A stretch of DNA of 7,107 bases from Thermoplasmata archaeon (GTDB lineage: Archaea; Thermoplasmatota; Thermoplasmata; Thermoplasmatales; Thermoplasmataceae), in the NCBI GenBank assembly GCA_021806345.1, contig JAJZXP010000348.1, positions 1 through 7,107 of the forward strand. Direction: 5' to 3'. Each line of letters starts with the position of its first letter. The first letter of the stretch is position 1. Of this stretch, positions 1 through 7,107 are shown in pieces. The position numbers were made by a program, and so were the translations under genes. The notes under the pieces are model-generated. The model was not told where the DNA came from, did not search any database, and was given only the letters and a program-made list of their open reading frames with translations.

Positions 1-1319
1 AAGGAACGATTAAGAATATTCCTTGCTTTGAACCACCTGAGCTTGTACTCCAGGATGAATTGCACCTATTGGAAGGGCCATTGGGCAGTCTTTTTGGCCT
101 CTATGAGACTTCGGTAGAAGGACTTATCCGTGAACGTGGTATATCTCCAAAATATATTGCATCGACCGCGACCATAAAGTTCGCTGAATCCCAAATTGAA
201 AGACTATTTGCAAAAGAAGTCCGTCAATTTCCACCCAACGGACTTACAATCGAAGATAGCTTCTTTGTCAGAGAAAGAGAAAGGAATGATAGTTGGAATG
301 AGGAGCTGGCAGGGAGGATCTATGCTGGAGTTTATTCTCCAGGATGGGGACCTCATACACCAAATATACGTATTTGGGCTAACCTTCTACAAAGTGTTTA
401 CGAACTACGAAATGAAATTAACATAAATTTTTTCTGGACTCTCGTTGGTTACTTCAATTCTATAAAAGAACTTGGAGGAGCGAGGGGACTTTATCGAGCA
501 GATATTGTTGAACGTGTCCAGAACATTGCGTCTGGTGCACCTCGAATGCTAGACCAGGGCAATGTTACTGAACTTTCAAGCAGGATAAATTCAACGGATA
601 TACCGCAGCTGCTGGATGATCTTGAGCGTGGGGAAGAAAGGGGCGTTGAATTGAACCCAGACAGCATATTTACCACATCCATGTTTGGCACTGGGGTGGA
701 TATTTCTCATTTATCGCTTATGGTAGTTAATGGTCAGCCTAAAACAACAACTCAATACATTCAGGCGACCGGAAGAGTTGGTAGAAAACATGGAGGTTTA
801 GTTGTGACATTTTTGCGTTCTGGTCGACCACGAGACTTGAGTCATTATGAAGCATTTCCTGCCTATCATCAACGAAAGTACTTAGAAGTTGAACCTTCAT
901 CTGTTTTCCCATATTCCGATGGTAGTCTAGCTAGGGGTATAGGCCCGTCAATGGTATCTTTCCTTAGAAATTTTCTGAATAATTCCGTCGGTTGGAACGA
1001 AGGAAATGGAAGAGTTATTCTAGAGAACGGTTCAAAAAATGACCTCATCATTTATGAAGATCTTATGCGAAAAAGATTGTCAGGGGTTATGAATATTGAC
1101 GAGGTAAATAAACTAATCAACTACATAAAGAGTGAAACAGACAGGTGGATTAATACGTCTAGGGCTGTTTCAAAGATGATTTTTGTTGAGTATTTTAAGG
1201 CCGTCGAAAATGTAGTTCTCGGGGACCCTTATCATAAGAATAAGGGCCTTTCCATTGTATTTGATAATGCACCTCAGTCACTCAGAGAAGTTGAAGAGAC
1301 AACAGGATTTGTGGTATGA
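1..1319 (+). CDS. drmA: DrmA-like SF2 helicase of a DISARM system, C-terminal part (5' end outside window)
   Basis: This is the helicase subunit of the DISARM core; family members are long SF2 ATPases that work with DrmB on foreign DNA. The frame is open from base 3 and encodes about 438 residues. It enters at the Walker B region, PELVLQDELHLLEGPLGS, with the DELH box at 54-65. Motif III (STATI) is at 162-176. An ELSSR segment at 570-584 recalls the ELTSR of DrmA/MrfA helicases. Motif V (GTGVD) is at 687-701 and motif VI (QATGRVGR) at 762-785, followed by a typical HYEAF...YHQRKYLEVEPSS segment. The first RecA domain with Walker A lies upstream. The TTG at 60 is not a start, because it codes for the Leu inside DELH. 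The stop TGA (1317-1319) touches the drmB ATG. The visible motifs look intact, so the helicase is probably active. Family assignment is strong; the drmA name rests also on the drmB and drmC neighbours. Confidence 0.9.
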   Translation, partial: GTIKNIPCFEPPELVLQDELHLLEGPLGSLFGLYETSVEGLIRERGISPKYIASTATIKFAESQIERLFAKEVRQFPPNGLTIEDSFFVRERERNDSWNEELAGRIYAGVYSPGWGPHTPNIRIWANLLQSVYELRNEININFFWTLVGYFNSIKELGGARGLYRADIVERVQNIASGAPRMLDQGNVTELSSRINSTDIPQLLDDLERGEERGVELNPDSIFTTSMFGTGVDISHLSLMVVNGQPKTTTQYIQATGRVGRKHGGLVVTFLRSGRPRDLSHYEAFPAYHQRKYLEVEPSSVFPYSDGSLARGIGPSMVSFLRNFLNNSVGWNEGNGRVILENGSKNDLIIYEDLMRKRLSGVMNIDEVNKLINYIKSETDRWINTSRAVSKMIFVEYFKAVENVVLGDPYHKNKGLSIVFDNAPQSLREVEETTGFVV

Positions 1320-3128
1320 ATGACAGGAAAGGTACAACATCTTACGAGATCTCAGTTCATACTTACATACGGACCAGGAGCAATTATAGAAAGCGAAGGA
1401 GGGCCGAGACTTATTCCTTCCTTAAATAAAGGGATAAGTACCAAGTTTCTCAGTTCAAGCAACATAAGAGATTTCGAGATAGTTGACAGCAGATTGAGAG
1501 TGGTTCTAAAGAACCTAAAAGGTAAGGATGCAGGAATATTTGCGTTACCAACTAACGCAGGTCTCAATATACCCTCATATTATGCCATATATTCGACATA
1601 TTACTTTCCCAGATGGAGGGTATGCTATGGTAGAAAAGCAGGGCACGATCCAGTGCTTTATGGTACATCAGGTTGTCCAATCTGTAAAAAAGAGGATGAT
1701 TCATCTGCGGTAAGATTTGTCACAGCTTGCACAAATGGGCATATGGATGAAGTCAACTGGATTTACGCAGTTCACATAAAAAAGGAAGGCAAATGTGAAC
1801 CGAATTACTTTAACTGGCGTAGCCAGGGAAGTTCACTCGCAGACATATCTATATCTTGTCCTAAGTGTGGAGCGTCAACCAATATGCAAGAGATTTATAG
1901 TATTGATTTTCTACCGTGTACGGCAAGGTTGCCTGAGACTGAACTACCTATAAACAAAACTAATGATCGCCCATCGATAACAGGTATTGAAAGAAACCGA
2001 ACTAAATGTGATAAGATGATGAAAACACTTCAAAGACAGTCAAGTGCACTCCGTGTTGCGGACACAATAACATTTTTGACCATCCCAGAATATGATAAAA
2101 GCATATCAAATGTACTTCAACGGGCAGAAGTGGGTTCGGCCATAGAGGGGCTTCTAGCAGCAGGCACTGCTTTTTCGGATCAGGCATTTATTGGAATTCT
2201 GGAGAACATGAAGCGGGTCTCTGCAGAAGCTAAAGAAACAATAAAGAACTATATAAACACAAATAGCAAAGACGAACTGACGAATCTTTTTAACAGACTC
2301 AATGACGATAAAAAACAATTTATGGATTTCATTTATGAAGAATTTGATTCATTAATCGCCGGAGCTCCGAGATCGACTGATAATTTTAGTATTTTGAAAC
2401 CAATACATATTAAACCAGTTAAATTTCCCTTTGTAATCTATCCCATTGATAGGCTTAGAACTGTAACTGCACAAATAGGTTACACTAGGACTCCTTACAC
2501 AGAAAGCAATCAGGAATCGACCAGTGATCAAGCTAGCAGGCAAGTACCTTCTCACACAGAAATGGGTGGATTAAGCTGGTACCCTGGATTTGAGGGAAAA
2601 GGGGAGGGTCTATTCATAACTCTTGAAGATAACTTCGGTGAATCGCTTTTCCATAATGATAATCCTTGGAAACAAGAATCTCAAAACAATACTCGGACTG
2701 CATTTGGCAATCAATATTGGGAAAATGTACCAAAGCAACCTCTGTTTGTGTGGTATCACACAATATCACATGCTCTTTTAAGGGCACTTTCTCAATATGG
2801 AGGATATTCATCAGCTTCACTCAGAGAAAGGGTGTATGTTGATCGTAATTTCAGGAAGGGTGGCGTACTGATTTACACCACATCTCCAGGCGACGATGGA
2901 AGTATGGGCGGTCTCGTTGGCATAGCAAATCAAACGCAACTCAAGGAGATAATGGAACGCGCTCTTGAAAACATAAGTTTCTGTTCTAACGATCCGTTGT
3001 GCTTAGAAACAAGTAAAGTTCTAAATAAAGTCAATGGTGCCGCTTGCTATAGTTGTTTGTTTACATCGGAAACGTCTTGCGAACACAGAAATATGTGTCT
3101 TGATCGCCACATAATACTTGGTGATTAA
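1320..3128 (+). CDS. drmB: DrmB-like DISARM protein with DUF1998 (zinc-binding) domain
   Basis: The product (602 residues) is the DUF1998 partner of DrmA; in characterised DISARM the two act as a complex, and related MrfA carries helicase and DUF1998 parts in one chain. The N-terminus has the family's QFILTYGPGAIIE segment (residues 12-24). A putative zinc site follows: C119/C122, then the RFVTACTNGHMDEVNW block with C137 and H141, and a further C180/C183 pair. The C-terminal DUF1998 region starts near WYHTISHALLRAL (478-490) and has GVLIYTTSPGDDGSMGGL (515-532). It ends in a cysteine cluster: C555, C561, C576, C579, C587 and C593, closing with NMCLDR. No catalytic residues of its own are evident, so a structural or DNA-handling role is likely. 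The ATG at 1320 directly follows the drmA stop, which points to coupled translation. Only a weak GTGGT element precedes it. Confidence 0.92.
   Translation: MTGKVQHLTRSQFILTYGPGAIIESEGGPRLIPSLNKGISTKFLSSSNIRDFEIVDSRLRVVLKNLKGKDAGIFALPTNAGLNIPSYYAIYSTYYFPRWRVCYGRKAGHDPVLYGTSGCPICKKEDDSSAVRFVTACTNGHMDEVNWIYAVHIKKEGKCEPNYFNWRSQGSSLADISISCPKCGASTNMQEIYSIDFLPCTARLPETELPINKTNDRPSITGIERNRTKCDKMMKTLQRQSSALRVADTITFLTIPEYDKSISNVLQRAEVGSAIEGLLAAGTAFSDQAFIGILENMKRVSAEAKETIKNYINTNSKDELTNLFNRLNDDKKQFMDFIYEEFDSLIAGAPRSTDNFSILKPIHIKPVKFPFVIYPIDRLRTVTAQIGYTRTPYTESNQESTSDQASRQVPSHTEMGGLSWYPGFEGKGEGLFITLEDNFGESLFHNDNPWKQESQNNTRTAFGNQYWENVPKQPLFVWYHTISHALLRALSQYGGYSSASLRERVYVDRNFRKGGVLIYTTSPGDDGSMGGLVGIANQTQLKEIMERALENISFCSNDPLCLETSKVLNKVNGAACYSCLFTSETSCEHRNMCLDRHIILGD
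3120..3125 (+). promoter_or_regulatory. Shine-Dalgarno site GGTGAT for drmC
   Basis: GGTGAT is complementary to the 3' end of 16S rRNA (the AUCACC part of the anti-Shine-Dalgarno region) and lies four bases before the ATG at 3130. It overlaps the last codons of drmB. Its position decides the drmC start in favour of ATG 3130 over the TTG at 3118, which precedes it. The GGTGAT form is common in archaea but also occurs in bacteria. Confidence 0.6.
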
Positions 3129-3129
3129 T

Positions 3130-3600
3130 ATGTCCAATCAGGAAGTTAAAATTGTAGCAACTGGAGCAAAATGGGTTGGGAGAGGAATAAGGGCATTTTC
3201 TGAAACTACTAAAGAGTGCATTGATGGAACCCAGAATAATCTCTCGTTAACCATTTTCGCTCTATCAGACGACCAAATCATAGATAGGCTTGTTAACGCC
3301 CTTGAAAGAGGAGTTTCAGTGGATATATATCTGAATTACAACAGAAAGTCTGTTTCCAAAGAGTACCTCAAGAAGGTGACCGAGCTCGACGATAAATACA
3401 GGAATCTTAAGCTATTCAAAGTTAAAGAAGATGTACTTCATTCTAAAGTCATTATTTCAGACTTGAATAAAGCCATAGTTGGTTCAGCTAATGCGACTTT
3501 TGCTGGGATGGTAACTAATTATGAACTGGGTTTTGAGTTAGACGATTCGACAATTGCGCATAAATTGGAAACACTTCTACGTAGATTGAGGGAGAGATGA
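3130..3600 (+). CDS. drmC: DrmC-like phospholipase D family protein (single HKD motif)
   Basis: This 156-residue protein belongs to the PLD superfamily, whose HKD nucleases and phosphodiesterases attack phosphodiester bonds through a covalent histidine intermediate. The HxKx4Dx6GSxN motif is complete: H104, K106, D111, G118, S119, N121, then NYELGFEL. It has one HKD copy, so an active site would need two chains, as in Nuc-type endonucleases. The N-terminal half shows the usual PLD pattern of a hydrophobic strand (LSLTIFAL), a helix (IIDRLVNALERG) and a second strand (VDIYLNY). No signal peptide or membrane segment is visible, so it should be cytoplasmic. DrmC is part of the DISARM core, although in the studied Bacillus system it was reported as not strictly required for defence. 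It appears short for DrmC, suggesting a minimal form. The start is ATG 3130, one base after the drmB stop and behind GGTGAT. The stop overlaps the next gene. Confidence 0.85.
   Translation: MSNQEVKIVATGAKWVGRGIRAFSETTKECIDGTQNNLSLTIFALSDDQIIDRLVNALERGVSVDIYLNYNRKSVSKEYLKKVTELDDKYRNLKLFKVKEDVLHSKVIISDLNKAIVGSANATFAGMVTNYELGFELDDSTIAHKLETLLRRLRER
3588..3600 (+). promoter_or_regulatory. Ribosome-binding site and ATGA stop-start overlap between drmC and the large fourth gene
   Basis: A GAGG element (3588-3591) lies five bases before the ATG at 3597. The sequence ATGA (3597-3600) holds both this start and the drmC stop TGA. This arrangement is a standard sign of translational coupling. It supports membership of the 1004-residue protein in the same operon and functional unit as DrmC. 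Confidence 0.6.
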
Positions 3601-6600
3601 AATATTTTCATTTTAACATAACCTGTCCTGAATGTAAAGAGCCTCATTTGAAAGGTGAACAATTAGAGAAACTAGATTCAAAATGGATAAAATGTACTAG
3701 TTGTGGTTGCGTTTTCTCCAACAAACTTGTGTTCGATAATGAAAGGTTTCCAAATACATTTGAAGAAGTGTATAGATTAAACTCATCAATTCCTAAAAAA
3801 TCGGCGTCCATTATTAATCTTCCTTGGGCAGTGGAGAGCAATTTATTGGAAAAGTGTTATATTGATTGGCTCGGGGGACTAAATCCTCCTAACAACATAC
3901 TTGTAACTTGGCCATGGAAAAAAGTGAAATTTGTTCCAATATTGATAGTAGAATACTTATCAAAAAATGAAGATAAACGAGTGGCCGTAATCGATGGAAT
4001 GAGTGAGGACACTGATAGGATTATCTATCCTCCAACCATCCTTAAAACATACAATGAAACTGCATTTTACAAAGATAATCGTGAATTGAACACAGGGGGC
4101 AGAGATGCAGTCGATGAGATGAAGAAGATAGATTATACGGATTTCATTAAACTTGAAAAAATTGTTGAATACGAAATAAAAAGAGTTGGGAGTAAGAATA
4201 GAACGAAATACACGTCAGATAAGAGTTTTATTAAATGCAAAAATATGATATTGAAAGAGGTAAAGTCAGACTTTGGGGAAAATTGCGTCAAGAACCTGAC
4301 TATCAATCGTTTGGAAAAAGAAAACAAGACCACTATGATCAATTCAGAAGGTAAAATTGACATCAAAATACATGAAATGGAAAAATACGCTGGCACCTTC
4401 ATCTATGATAAAAGATGGCTTTGGGGAAATCTCTTAAATTCTGCTGCACTTGTAAAGGCAAGAAATGAATTTCCCCCTGTTATCCTCAGCGTGGATACTG
4501 CAGGCAATTATTCAAGAGATAACAGGTTGTTTTGTCTAAACGAGGAGGACGACCCTGATTTCATTTTTAAAAAATTGGAGGAAATACACCCCGATCTAGT
4601 TATCCTGCCCAATTGTGATTGGTTCATCAAGGATAAACTCAGGGCTGGTCCAAGATATCACGGTTTGGTAAAGTTTCTCAGGCAAAATAACAAATCTAAT
4701 GTGATAATGTTCACTACCAACAAAGACTATAGGCATTTATATGACATATACGGGACACCATTTGGTGAAGGTTCCAATGTGACGACGCACACCTGCGACT
4801 CCGAGATATTTCTCAATAAGCTGTGGGAGACTAATGCACCTCGAGATAAATACTACTATAATCCCCTAAGTTCCATGTGGAAAGAAATTCGCGGCATGAA
4901 CAAGAAGGGACCTCCAGTCAAATATATTGTAGTGGAGTCATTGGATGAAGTGTCCGAAAAGTTGAGCTACCTTGAAGGAGTTTCAAATCAAGCTTTGAAA
5001 AGGGATATCATTTACTTTTTCAGAGAGCTTCTCAAAAGTTTCTTAAATTTATATGGAAATCCTTCAAGCATAGATTCTTTCGACAGAAAAGGTAATTCTT
5101 TGGATGTTCTATCTTATGATTCTGTTTTAAGTATGATAAGAGAAAAAACAGGTGAATCAACTTATGATGAATTTGTAAAGACATTAAGCGATTTGTATCT
5201 CATCAACGGTGAGTCTCCCACTAACCCTCTCTGGCTGGAAGCCAAAAGAGTTTTGCTGAATCTTCTGAAGACCAAAGTGAACATAGTCACTATTGTGGTT
5301 CATTATCGGGATTTAAGGGGTTCGTTAAAATTGATTCGTAACCTCGAACTGTCAGAAATCGACACGAATAGAGTAAGGGTCGCAACCTGGAAAACTCTAT
5401 TGAATATAGAATCCGAAATCCCCCCTAATTATCATCATATAATCTTGGCAACTTCATATCCAAGCATAGGTTATTCCATATTCAATAGTAAAGCAAATGA
5501 ATTCATCTTTTTGGGCGCTTCTGCAAACATTGAAAAGACTAAAGAAGTGGTGAACAACAGACTGATTGAAATCCGTTCAAGGCCATTTAAAACTCTGAAG
5601 GAAGAAGTTCCTGCACCAGAAGTGATCAAAAAAGTGAATTATGCAGCAAGTGCCCCTATATATGATACAATAGAAGAAGTGGTTGAAGATTATGTGCTGC
5701 GTGAATCAAACTATCTCACATCAAAAAATAAGACTGATGGTGAAAATATAAGATACGAGGAATATGCTAAGATAAGGGCAGGAGAAGACGCAATACTGGT
5801 CATCGACTCAATGGAAAATGGAATATTTATTCCAATAAATTCAAGCCTCACTGTTAAGGAAAAGGACAGCCTCGCTGAAATAGAATTGTCTTCGGTTAAA
5901 GATAAGGATTTGGAGAATACTCTTGTTGATAAAGATATACTTGTGGATTCAGAAGGATTGCATCAATCATTCAAAGCATTGTTCATTTTTTATATGAGGA
6001 AATATGCAGAGAGTACTGTTTTTAGAAAAGGCCCCTACGAGTGGGATGGATTTGAAGAAATATTTATTGATAGCCAACGCTGGATTAATGATTTGCGAAG
6101 ATCTGTTGAGAATTATGTCTTGAGAAAGGGTGTTGATGAAGTTGCAGCCAGCTACAATATCTCGAAATATCTGTCGACACTCAATCTAAACGCAGGTGAT
6201 CCAGATTACATAAAAAATTGGTGGACTGATTATGAGTTAATAACTTTGGGAGAGTCAAAGTATTACATATATAGAATAGAACACCCGAAGAGTATAACAG
6301 ACATTCAAAAAATGTATGAAGGGATAACTATCTTATTTCCAGATATGGATCTGGATTTTGTGAACGGGGAGAAGAGCTATCTAGCTTCAGTATTTTTACA
6401 AGATTTTAGAAGGTCACTTTTAACTGGAAAGAAATTGGAATCTGAGCTCCAGTTTATTCATAATCAAATCAGAAGGGACCTTAGCGGTTTGGTCAAAGAG
6501 TCTGCACTGTTCAAAGTAATGAATTGTTTCAAAGTAAAGCTAGAAAGTGAAGTTGTCCAATTCAAGATCTTAGATAACTATAAAGATTATATTCATACCG

Positions 6601-6611
6601 AATTCCCTTAA
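3597..6611 (+). CDS. Large zinc-ribbon protein with degenerate helicase-like core; candidate DrmE-like DISARM subunit
   Basis: I do not firmly recognise this 1004-residue protein. Residues 10-36 form a zinc ribbon (C10-x2-C13, C33-x2-C36, with an extra C38). Residues 99-132 (NILVTWPWKKVKFVPIL... KRVAVI) sit where a helicase Walker A strand-loop-helix would be, but the GxGK[ST] signature is missing. A Lys/Asn-rich stretch follows (about 150-265). PPVILSVDTAG (293-303), HPDLVILPNCD (331-341) and VIMFTTNKD (369-377) resemble motifs Ia, II and III, with no DExx acid pair. A second alpha/beta region spans about 560-660 (VNIVTIVVHYRDL, HHIILATSYPSIGY, EFIFLGASAN). Residues 720-1004 match nothing I know; 845-880 could be a small helical DNA-binding unit. 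Reading: a two-lobed helicase-like scaffold that has lost ATPase function. Its place directly after drmC, with ATGA overlap, makes it a likely system component. DrmE of class 2 DISARM is the best candidate family, but that is inference from context. Confidence 0.7.
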   Translation: MKYFHFNITCPECKEPHLKGEQLEKLDSKWIKCTSCGCVFSNKLVFDNERFPNTFEEVYRLNSSIPKKSASIINLPWAVESNLLEKCYIDWLGGLNPPNNILVTWPWKKVKFVPILIVEYLSKNEDKRVAVIDGMSEDTDRIIYPPTILKTYNETAFYKDNRELNTGGRDAVDEMKKIDYTDFIKLEKIVEYEIKRVGSKNRTKYTSDKSFIKCKNMILKEVKSDFGENCVKNLTINRLEKENKTTMINSEGKIDIKIHEMEKYAGTFIYDKRWLWGNLLNSAALVKARNEFPPVILSVDTAGNYSRDNRLFCLNEEDDPDFIFKKLEEIHPDLVILPNCDWFIKDKLRAGPRYHGLVKFLRQNNKSNVIMFTTNKDYRHLYDIYGTPFGEGSNVTTHTCDSEIFLNKLWETNAPRDKYYYNPLSSMWKEIRGMNKKGPPVKYIVVESLDEVSEKLSYLEGVSNQALKRDIIYFFRELLKSFLNLYGNPSSIDSFDRKGNSLDVLSYDSVLSMIREKTGESTYDEFVKTLSDLYLINGESPTNPLWLEAKRVLLNLLKTKVNIVTIVVHYRDLRGSLKLIRNLELSEIDTNRVRVATWKTLLNIESEIPPNYHHIILATSYPSIGYSIFNSKANEFIFLGASANIEKTKEVVNNRLIEIRSRPFKTLKEEVPAPEVIKKVNYAASAPIYDTIEEVVEDYVLRESNYLTSKNKTDGENIRYEEYAKIRAGEDAILVIDSMENGIFIPINSSLTVKEKDSLAEIELSSVKDKDLENTLVDKDILVDSEGLHQSFKALFIFYMRKYAESTVFRKGPYEWDGFEEIFIDSQRWINDLRRSVENYVLRKGVDEVAASYNISKYLSTLNLNAGDPDYIKNWWTDYELITLGESKYYIYRIEHPKSITDIQKMYEGITILFPDMDLDFVNGEKSYLASVFLQDFRRSLLTGKKLESELQFIHNQIRRDLSGLVKESALFKVMNCFKVKLESEVVQFKILDNYKDYIHTEFP

Positions 6612-6760: not shown

Positions 6761-7107
6761 CTAATCATCTAGTTTCACCTCAACTTCTTTCTTTTCGAAT
6801 CTGTTCCTGAATGCCGGATCATCCAGGAACTTCCTCCTGAACTCCCTTGGAGGAAGATAATCGATGGATGAATGTGGCCTGCATTCGTTGTAATCAGAGA
6901 ATGCCACCCCAATGGTAATTGATGCCTCATGGAAGTCCCTGAACTCGTTTGGCCAGATGTAATCTGTCTTGATTGAGTTGTGGAATGATTCAATGTTTCC
7001 ATTGTCCTCAGGCGTGTGTTTCTGGATATATTCCAGCTTTATGCCTAGGAGTTTCATGGCATTCCTGAACTCATGCGATATGTATTGTGGTCCGTTGTCT
7101 GTCCTCA
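6761..7107 (-). CDS. IS3-family DDE transposase (OrfB type), C-terminal part; 5' end outside window
   Basis: About 114 codons are visible, with the frame open at the right edge (first full codon ends at 7105). The fragment carries the last two thirds of the catalytic triad of an rve-type integrase core. The second Asp is in RTDNGPQY (codon at 7097-7099) and the Glu is in NIESFHNSIK (codon at 6989-6991). Exactly 35 residues separate them, the classic DD35E spacing. The following segment, YNECRPHSSIDYLPPREFRR, is the conserved C-terminal signature of IS3-type transposases. The enzyme cuts the ends of its element and joins them to target DNA. The ATG at 7057 is internal, since it falls after the DNG motif. 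The first Asp and any OrfA frameshift region are not visible. The gene is transcribed toward the defence operon. It resembles IS3-like transposases I associate with Thermoplasmata, but I cannot confirm the host. Confidence 0.9.
   Translation of the reverse strand, partial: RTDNGPQYISHEFRNAMKLLGIKLEYIQKHTPEDNGNIESFHNSIKTDYIWPNEFRDFHEASITIGVAFSDYNECRPHSSIDYLPPREFRRKFLDDPAFRNRFEKKEVEVKLDD

Follow-up and report, generated by a model that had tools for sequence, protein, structure and literature searches.

A probable class 2-type DISARM operon of Thermoplasmata with a putative repair glycosylase and a candidate divergent DrmE

PADLOC describes type II DISARM (defence island system associated with restriction-modification) as DrmA, DrmB, DrmC, DrmE and the methylase DrmMII, as given in PMC9252829. 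DISARM class 1 consists of DrmA, DrmB, DrmC, DrmD and DrmMI. Class 2 DISARM in archaeal proviruses has already been published, as passages of PMC11705971 relate. In the portion of a YprA-family study drawn on here (PMC12458937), many uncharacterized DISARM-like classes are recognized, most DrmCs carry an N-terminal four-helix bundle, and there is no mention of drmE or of a glycosylase. An excerpt of PMC9142583 reports that the DrmAB ATPase is stimulated by unmethylated DNA and lowered by 5-methylcytosine, and names DrmC-type nucleases as proposed effectors. The locus compared with these systems lies on a 7,107-nt stretch from a Thermoplasmata archaeon (contig JAJZXP010000348.1), referred to as the window, which starts inside drmA and ends inside an IS3 transposase gene. 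Between these ends are drmB, drmC and a gene for a 1004-residue protein, called gene X. The window probably covers the 3' half of an operon of class 2 type from Thermoplasmata, one with a predicted repair glycosylase and a divergent DrmE, and we regard the loci that carry X as a new archaeal variant of class 2 DISARM.

The ORF (open reading frame) listing of the window places drmA, drmB, drmC and X in four consecutive plus-strand frames. There is zero gap between drmA and drmB, one base between drmB and drmC when the ATG start is used, and an ATGA overlap between drmC and X. The products of the first three genes match their PADLOC models with E-values of 8.8e-191 (DrmA), 3e-197 (DrmB) and 1.1e-45 (DrmC); as sequence matches, these are too strong for chance. 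Against NCBIfam DrmAL (E 7.1e-187) the DrmA match spans profile positions 882-1327 of 1329, which places roughly two thirds of drmA upstream of base 1. DrmB scores 466 bits against NCBIfam DrmB_fam (cut-off 240) and matches Pfam MZB (DUF1998). DrmC has a single PLD domain and scores 80 bits against NCBIfam DrmC_I (cut-off 133), with the match confined to positions 74-235 of 236; it therefore lacks the N-terminal part. The window thus holds a drmA helicase gene, in part, adjoining a drmB MZB/DUF1998 gene, together with a short form of the drmC PLD nuclease gene. A first-pass annotation of the window had named this drmA-drmB-drmC core and described the same frames and packing, and both descriptions stand. 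Neither drmD nor drmMI was recognized by PADLOC or NCBIfam within the window, that is, from base 1 onward.

Gene X is rare. A protein search identified six X proteins in 5.8 billion, including the one in the window, and the relatives are full-length proteins with 62-67% identity to it. The neighbourhood is known for 2/6 of these proteins: one is that of the window, and the other, P0003, has the same sequence as the X of locus L001. One of 8 genome-contig pattern matches encodes X, and this is L001, from a Thermoplasmata metagenome-assembled genome. A first profile, applied to the whole phylum, detected X in 3/389 Thermoplasmatota genomes, and a profile that included the shorter X form detected it in 6/117 genomes of one order. 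X was found neither in plasmids nor among 435 pattern matches in viral contigs. Beyond the window, nine X loci (L001, L010, L011, L043, L060, L061, L062, L063 and L064) were collected from seven genomes (G001, G312, G066, G117, G390, G400 and G428, the last with three).

In 10/10 loci, window included, X immediately follows drmC or, in those that lack drmC, either drmB or a drmAB fusion, which bears out the proposal that the 1004-residue gene belongs to the unit. drmC is present in 5/10 loci (window, L001, L010, L060, L064) and absent from the X unit in the rest. Two layouts were observed. In L001, L010, L011, L060 and L061 the order is C5 cytosine methylase, HhH-GPD DNA glycosylase, drmA, drmB, drmC where present, and a long X. 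In L043 and L062 a drmAB fusion is followed by a short X (~805 aa), the C5 methylase and the HhH-GPD gene; the short X of L043 is recognized by the long-X profile with an E-value of 2.3e-16 among 145 ORFs. The drmA of L060 in genome G390 is split across two frames (9622-13400, minus strand), which may be a real split or an assembly error.

The methylase and the glycosylase occur as a pair in 7/7 X loci with sufficient contig, and immediately upstream of drmA in the 5/5 with separate drmA and drmB; in L061 the contig stops within the methylase gene. Three further loci say nothing on the pair, because their contigs stop within drmA (window, L064) or shortly after X (L063). The first-pass annotation had seen no methylase. 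This impression arose because the window begins inside drmA, and it does not hold for the relatives with sufficient contig, including the five that share the window's layout. Judged from these relatives, the window's own operon probably has a drmMII-type methylase and a glycosylase upstream of drmA.

The methylase of L001 matches Pfam DNA_methylase and NCBIfam dcm, and those of L043 and of L042, a locus that lacks X, have a Pfam match. DrmMII is the best PADLOC model for 6/6 methylases scanned (L001, L010, L011, L060, L043 and L042); the methylases of L061, L062 and L045 were identified by phmmer. In L011, near position 15584 on the minus strand, the methylase frame is open upstream of the first ATG. 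Since methylase motif I lies in this upstream part, translation probably begins at a rarer start codon.

The X loci resemble class 2 DISARM in that drmA, drmB and drmC, joined in the relatives by a drmMII-type C5 methylase, form one unit. They differ from it in that X takes the place of a protein matching a DrmE model, drmC is short or missing, an HhH-GPD gene is added beside the methylase, and there are two layouts, one with drmA and drmB fused. Set against the PADLOC type II list, DrmA, DrmB and DrmMII are found, DrmC is found in half of the loci, and DrmE is found by no model. PADLOC models exist for DrmA, DrmB, DrmC and both methylase subfamilies found here, which means that these loci are not new to PADLOC; there is none for X. 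Class 1 shares the drmA/B/C core with these loci, and the relatives' DrmA exceeds the NCBIfam DrmAL cut-off. Unlike class 1, the relatives have a methylase of the C5 type, and the searches made of their fetched neighbourhoods detected no adenine methylase and no drmD. The first-pass suggestion of an archaeal or divergent DISARM layout agrees with these Thermoplasmatota relatives.

Probably X is a very divergent DrmE. This reading is adopted because X occupies the drmE slot, no separate drmE match was obtained in the X-bearing genomes, and X aligns with two archaeal DrmEs end to end above all decoys. In L012, L013 and L014 the slot after the drmC position holds, where X would be, a protein matching Pfam DrmE_C. 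The drmC of L012 is weakly matched by an NCBIfam model, and those of L013 and L014 are assumed from position. In other lineages drmE is placed elsewhere, for example upstream of drmA in L019. L018, from a Lactiplantibacillus plasmid, has an 801-aa protein between methylase and drmA that is called DrmE by position only and has no Pfam DrmE match. DrmE_fam produced 0/7 matches at E<=1 in X-bearing genomes, and at that limit weak matches in 4/14 control genomes. Genomes G149 and G160, which have weak DrmE_fam matches, had no drm genes when their ORF lists were inspected by eye and were excluded from the counts.

HHalign was used to compare X with DrmEs. Against the archaeal DrmEs of L013 and L014, alone or together with the drmE-slot protein of L046, X scored 33.5-35.6, and the alignment extends over the whole length (e.g. 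X 60-967 with DrmE 17-863) with no single patch responsible. Shuffled or reversed decoys reached the real score in 0/322, 0/242 and 0/480 cases, the maximum in the last run being 32.4; the 242- and 480-decoy sets were drawn from the 322-decoy set, so the runs are not independent. The DrmE of L013 ranked first among 68 single proteins in all three runs. When the X profile was applied to non-X ORFs, the DrmEs of L013 and L014 were at the top, but their E-values of 0.18 and 0.3 were comparable to that of an unrelated protein (0.31). A pattern near the N-terminus, hh..P-x7-P-hh, was present in 9/177 ORFs, comprising 5/9 X forms, 3/6 DrmEs and 1/162 others; it was written after the sequences had been seen.

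Several results weigh against DrmE identity. Neither the X of the window nor the relatives scanned have a Pfam, NCBIfam or PADLOC DrmE match. For the X of the window, PADLOC gives no match at E<=1, and Pfam and NCBIfam give none near a cut-off; the match to DrmE_fam (NF038316) or to Pfam DrmE_N/DrmE_C that marks a DrmE family member is absent as well. The HHalign probability for X with DrmE is 5-7% (E 0.005-0.008). Decoy-level scores were obtained with a DrmE set of L012, P0008 and L019 (19-20), with L046 by itself (18-19) and when only the short X forms were used (16-23). If X keeps its zinc ribbon, the DrmA of L012 comes close to the DrmE scores (31.6), and a three-member DrmB set reaches 29.3. 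A mixed set of all six DrmEs scored 23-31 with X. A first HHalign run of X with a mixed DrmE set had a probability of 0.9%, and BLASTP of X against one DrmE gave no signal.

Comparison of X with solved structures returned nothing credible, either for the single sequence or for the profile, whose best match (E 0.0003) was a designed repeat protein. DrmE relatives were absent from viral contigs (none of 80), and in the orders to which G081 and G203 belong, 1 + 52 genomes yielded only the two starting genomes.

The alternative that survives best, though we hold it to be somewhat unlikely, is that X is a new lineage-specific DISARM subunit, distinct from DrmE, which took over from DrmE within a single archaeal group. 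The zinc ribbon and long body of X would then sense the state of 5-methylcytosine or link DrmAB with other factors. The absence of a DrmE-model match in any X tested, the finding of only six X proteins in 5.8 billion, and a DrmE similarity that falls short of the usual confidence and does not show for half of the DrmEs compared all fit this alternative. It accounts less well for the drmE slot, the comparable size and the absence of a separate drmE in 7 genomes, or for a colinear end-to-end alignment above all shuffled decoys and the common N-terminal pattern. The failure of the models is itself compatible with DrmE identity, because the 1049-aa protein in the drmE slot of L046 also matches no Pfam or NCBIfam model. 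Compared with the DrmE family as a whole (NF038316, NF038323; PF24955, PF24957), X is similar in its position behind drmB/drmC, as in L012-L014, in length and in a suggestive alignment; it differs in failing every DrmE model and in its predicted N-terminal zinc ribbon. The first-pass annotation had implied that X is not drmE; X indeed fails every DrmE model, but the slot and the suggestive distant similarity point the other way. Of drmE plus drmMII, whose presence nearby would have spoken for a standard system, drmMII-type genes do adjoin the loci of close relatives and a separate drmE does not.

Other identities for X were rejected. As the first-pass annotation had stated, X is neither a methylase nor an SNF2 helicase: it has no such family match, nor one to a nuclease, and no Walker A, DExH or HKD motif is conserved across 14 X sequences. 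A degenerate superfamily 2 (SF2) helicase, suspected from the segment ATSYPSIGYSI, gave a profile score of 11.5, which 73/100 shuffled decoys equalled or exceeded.

The DISARM-linked HhH-GPD proteins are alike in 7/7 loci. They have 221-241 residues, a MIG-like size, and a four-Cys end. They have Arg-Thr where the aligned MutY has Gln-Gln-Thr, and Tyr at the position of the Nth lysine, where the chromosomal HhH-GPD proteins of the same genomes have Lys (8/11) or Glu (3/11). With L001 as query they score 119-525 bits, versus 66 bits or less for the chromosomal HhH-GPD proteins of the hosts. For 3/3 proteins searched of the seven, 1kea of M. thermautotrophicus, titled 'possible G-T mismatches repair enzyme', came first among solved relatives, with 124, 102 and 150 bits compared to 102, 93 and 114 for the best MutY. 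The relatives thus combine the features of a MIG-type fold, which are an HhH-GPD domain, a four-Cys cluster, no MutY C-terminal domain and, in the three searched, 1kea as nearest structure. Their glycosylases share with 1kea the fold family, length, active-site Tyr, Arg-Thr motif, four-Cys cluster and a C5-methylase partner; the gene of 1kea is linked to a C5 methylase on a plasmid. They differ from it in sitting inside a DISARM operon. Because the nearest solved relative is a G-T mismatch enzyme, the glycosylase is predicted to repair deaminated 5-methylcytosine (T:G).

In restriction-modification, Dcm is partnered by Vsr, a T:G enzyme of a different fold. Vsr was identified beside a C5 methylase in L042 (TIGR00632, E 1.1e-41) and L045 (phmmer, E 2.7e-34). 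The constant C5-methylase partner of the glycosylase, and the presence of Vsr in that place in these two other DISARM neighbourhoods, are the reasons for preferring a repair function. In L045 a distance of 1.5-2 kb separates drmB from the methylase and Vsr, and the methylase is encoded on the opposite strand; this pair may therefore be an ordinary restriction-modification remnant. Among 16 fetched Thermoplasmatota DISARM-like neighbourhoods, a non-random set gathered via X, DrmA and DrmE searches, 9 have a C5 methylase and 9/9 of these have a T:G-type enzyme. The plasmid locus L018, bacterial and class 2-like, has a C5 methylase and neither HhH-GPD nor Vsr among its ORFs. No description of a glycosylase in DISARM was found in openly licensed literature.

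Two observations on the Vsr loci stand apart. In L042 (14881-18834, plus strand) drmA-drmB-drmC is followed directly by a C5 methylase, by Vsr and by a 576-aa protein that belongs to no known family, and there is neither X nor a DrmE match. In L045 (3540-6063) the 646-aa C5 methylase ORF overlaps the Vsr ORF on the other strand, and the N-terminal part of the methylase ends in an HhH-GPD-like Cys cluster; it may be a glycosylase-methylase fusion.

It is unlikely, but conceivable, that these loci form a self-contained archaeal DISARM class, with a subunit unrelated to DrmE in the DrmE place and a self-marking methylase that has its own required deamination-repair enzyme, either HhH-GPD (X loci) or Vsr (two others). 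Such an immune system would bring along the repair for damage that its own self-mark inflicts.

The repair function has points against it. The MutY of 6q0c, which is part of the same alignment, has this active-site Tyr too; the residue therefore speaks only against an Nth-type lysine enzyme and does not by itself favour a G-T enzyme over MutY. The best NCBIfam model for the glycosylase is TIGR01084 mutY, far below cut-off. PADLOC places the family under the label 'Type II nicking endonuclease', which would allow a role in attack. HhH-GPD would then be a restriction-type effector that excises bases from unmethylated or mismatched foreign DNA as a second weapon. Base-excision restriction enzymes exist (passages of PMC10273834), and with drmC missing in 5/10 loci and the glycosylase present in 7/7, it could replace the nuclease. 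We consider an effector improbable, as the nearest relative is a G-T mismatch enzyme and the occurrence of Vsr in the same place (L042, L045) fits repair of deaminated 5-methylcytosine. Least probable, and by a wide measure doubtful, is a decaying or rearranged defence island in which the window locus truly lost its methylase, is non-functional or has X as a passenger: an IS3 element lies close behind X, only the 3' part of drmA is in view and L060 has a split drmA, but all visible frames are intact and tightly packed, and the X relatives are full-length, 62-67% identical and kept beside drmB in 10/10 loci.

The system may work as follows. In full, the operon would run from a drmMII-type C5 methylase and an HhH-GPD mismatch glycosylase through drmA, drmB and a short drmC to X. 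DrmMII would mark self DNA with 5-methylcytosine. DrmA/DrmB, an SF2 helicase and its MZB partner, would load onto incoming DNA that lacks the mark, and DrmC, when present, would cut it; here we carry over by inference to the X loci the DrmAB and DrmC behaviour of PMC9142583. The glycosylase would remove T from T:G mismatches that follow deamination of host 5-methylcytosines, shielding the host from the cost of the mark and standing outside the attack. Since no Walker A, DExH or HKD motif is conserved in it, X is proposed to be a non-enzymatic subunit with a structural, gating or regulatory function in the DrmE place. Its most likely identity is a homologue of DrmE that has diverged out of reach of family models and carries an extra zinc ribbon. 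The features of the window are collected in Table 1.

Table 1. Features of the 7,107-nt window, with coordinates, strand and basis of assignment.
Feature	Coordinates	Strand	Basis or remark
drmA, 3' part; C-terminal 438 residues with DELH and the helicase motif V/VI region	3..1319	+	PADLOC DrmA, NCBIfam DrmAL; cut by left end of window
drmB; MZB/DUF1998 protein, 602 aa	1320..3128	+	PADLOC DrmB, NCBIfam DrmB_fam, Pfam MZB
drmC, short form; one PLD nuclease domain, usual N-terminal part missing	3130..3600 (ORF 3118-3600, ATG 3130)	+	PADLOC DrmC, NCBIfam DrmC_I
Gene X; protein of 1004 aa in the DrmE slot, proposed to be a very divergent DrmE with an extra zinc ribbon at the N-terminus	3597..6611	+	Locus position; HHalign to DrmE
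Predicted zinc ribbon of X (CPEC ... CTSC)	3624..3704	+	Weak Pfam zinc-ribbon matches (E 0.13-0.17); Cys pairs in alignment of relatives
X segment LVTWPWKKVKFVPIL, pattern hh..P-x7-P-hh, also near N-terminus of three archaeal DrmEs	3900..3944	+	Pattern chosen after seeing the sequences
X segment DLVILPNCDWFIKD, HHalign-aligned to LVIFENIDRF of DrmE	4593..4634	+	
X C-terminal segment (WW...HPKSITDIQ...FRR..L.G), aligned to DrmE C-terminal region; best conserved part versus short X forms	6207..6431	+	
IS3-family transposase gene, 3' end; neighbour, outside the system	6761..7105	-	NCBIfam IS3, E 1.3e-25; cut by right end of window

The end of the IS3-family transposase gene sits 150 bases behind X and was not mentioned in the first-pass annotation. 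Other archaeal DISARM neighbourhoods have further genes of note. Mutually related radical-SAM-like proteins with CxxxCxxC are encoded next to the drmE-slot gene in L013 (9374-10660, plus strand), L046 (998-2227, minus strand) and L014 (5740-6909, minus strand), on the same strand as drmE in L013 and L046 and on the opposite strand in L014. The fetched stretches of these three loci contain no C5 methylase, and the proteins have no solved relative at E<=0.01; they are possibly another kind of self-mark. L012 consists of a drmA-drmB-drmC-drmE unit with no methylase in view. A PAPS-reductase/ferredoxin-like gene (2707-4287, plus strand; PRK13795 family, E 7e-80; PDB match to PAPS reductase) ends four bases before its drmA. 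In L044 of genome G067, a 597-aa ResIII/DEAD-type helicase (14479-16269, plus strand) follows drmA-drmB-drmC in place of X or DrmE.

X gives an entry point to the function of DrmE, which is left open in the portions of the literature cited here. If our reading is true, Thermoplasmata DISARM is easily missed by family models, its drmE going unrecognized. The persistent pairing of its C5 methylase with T:G mismatch enzymes of two unrelated folds would then suggest that mutations arising from self-marking with 5-methylcytosine put a real selective load on this defence.

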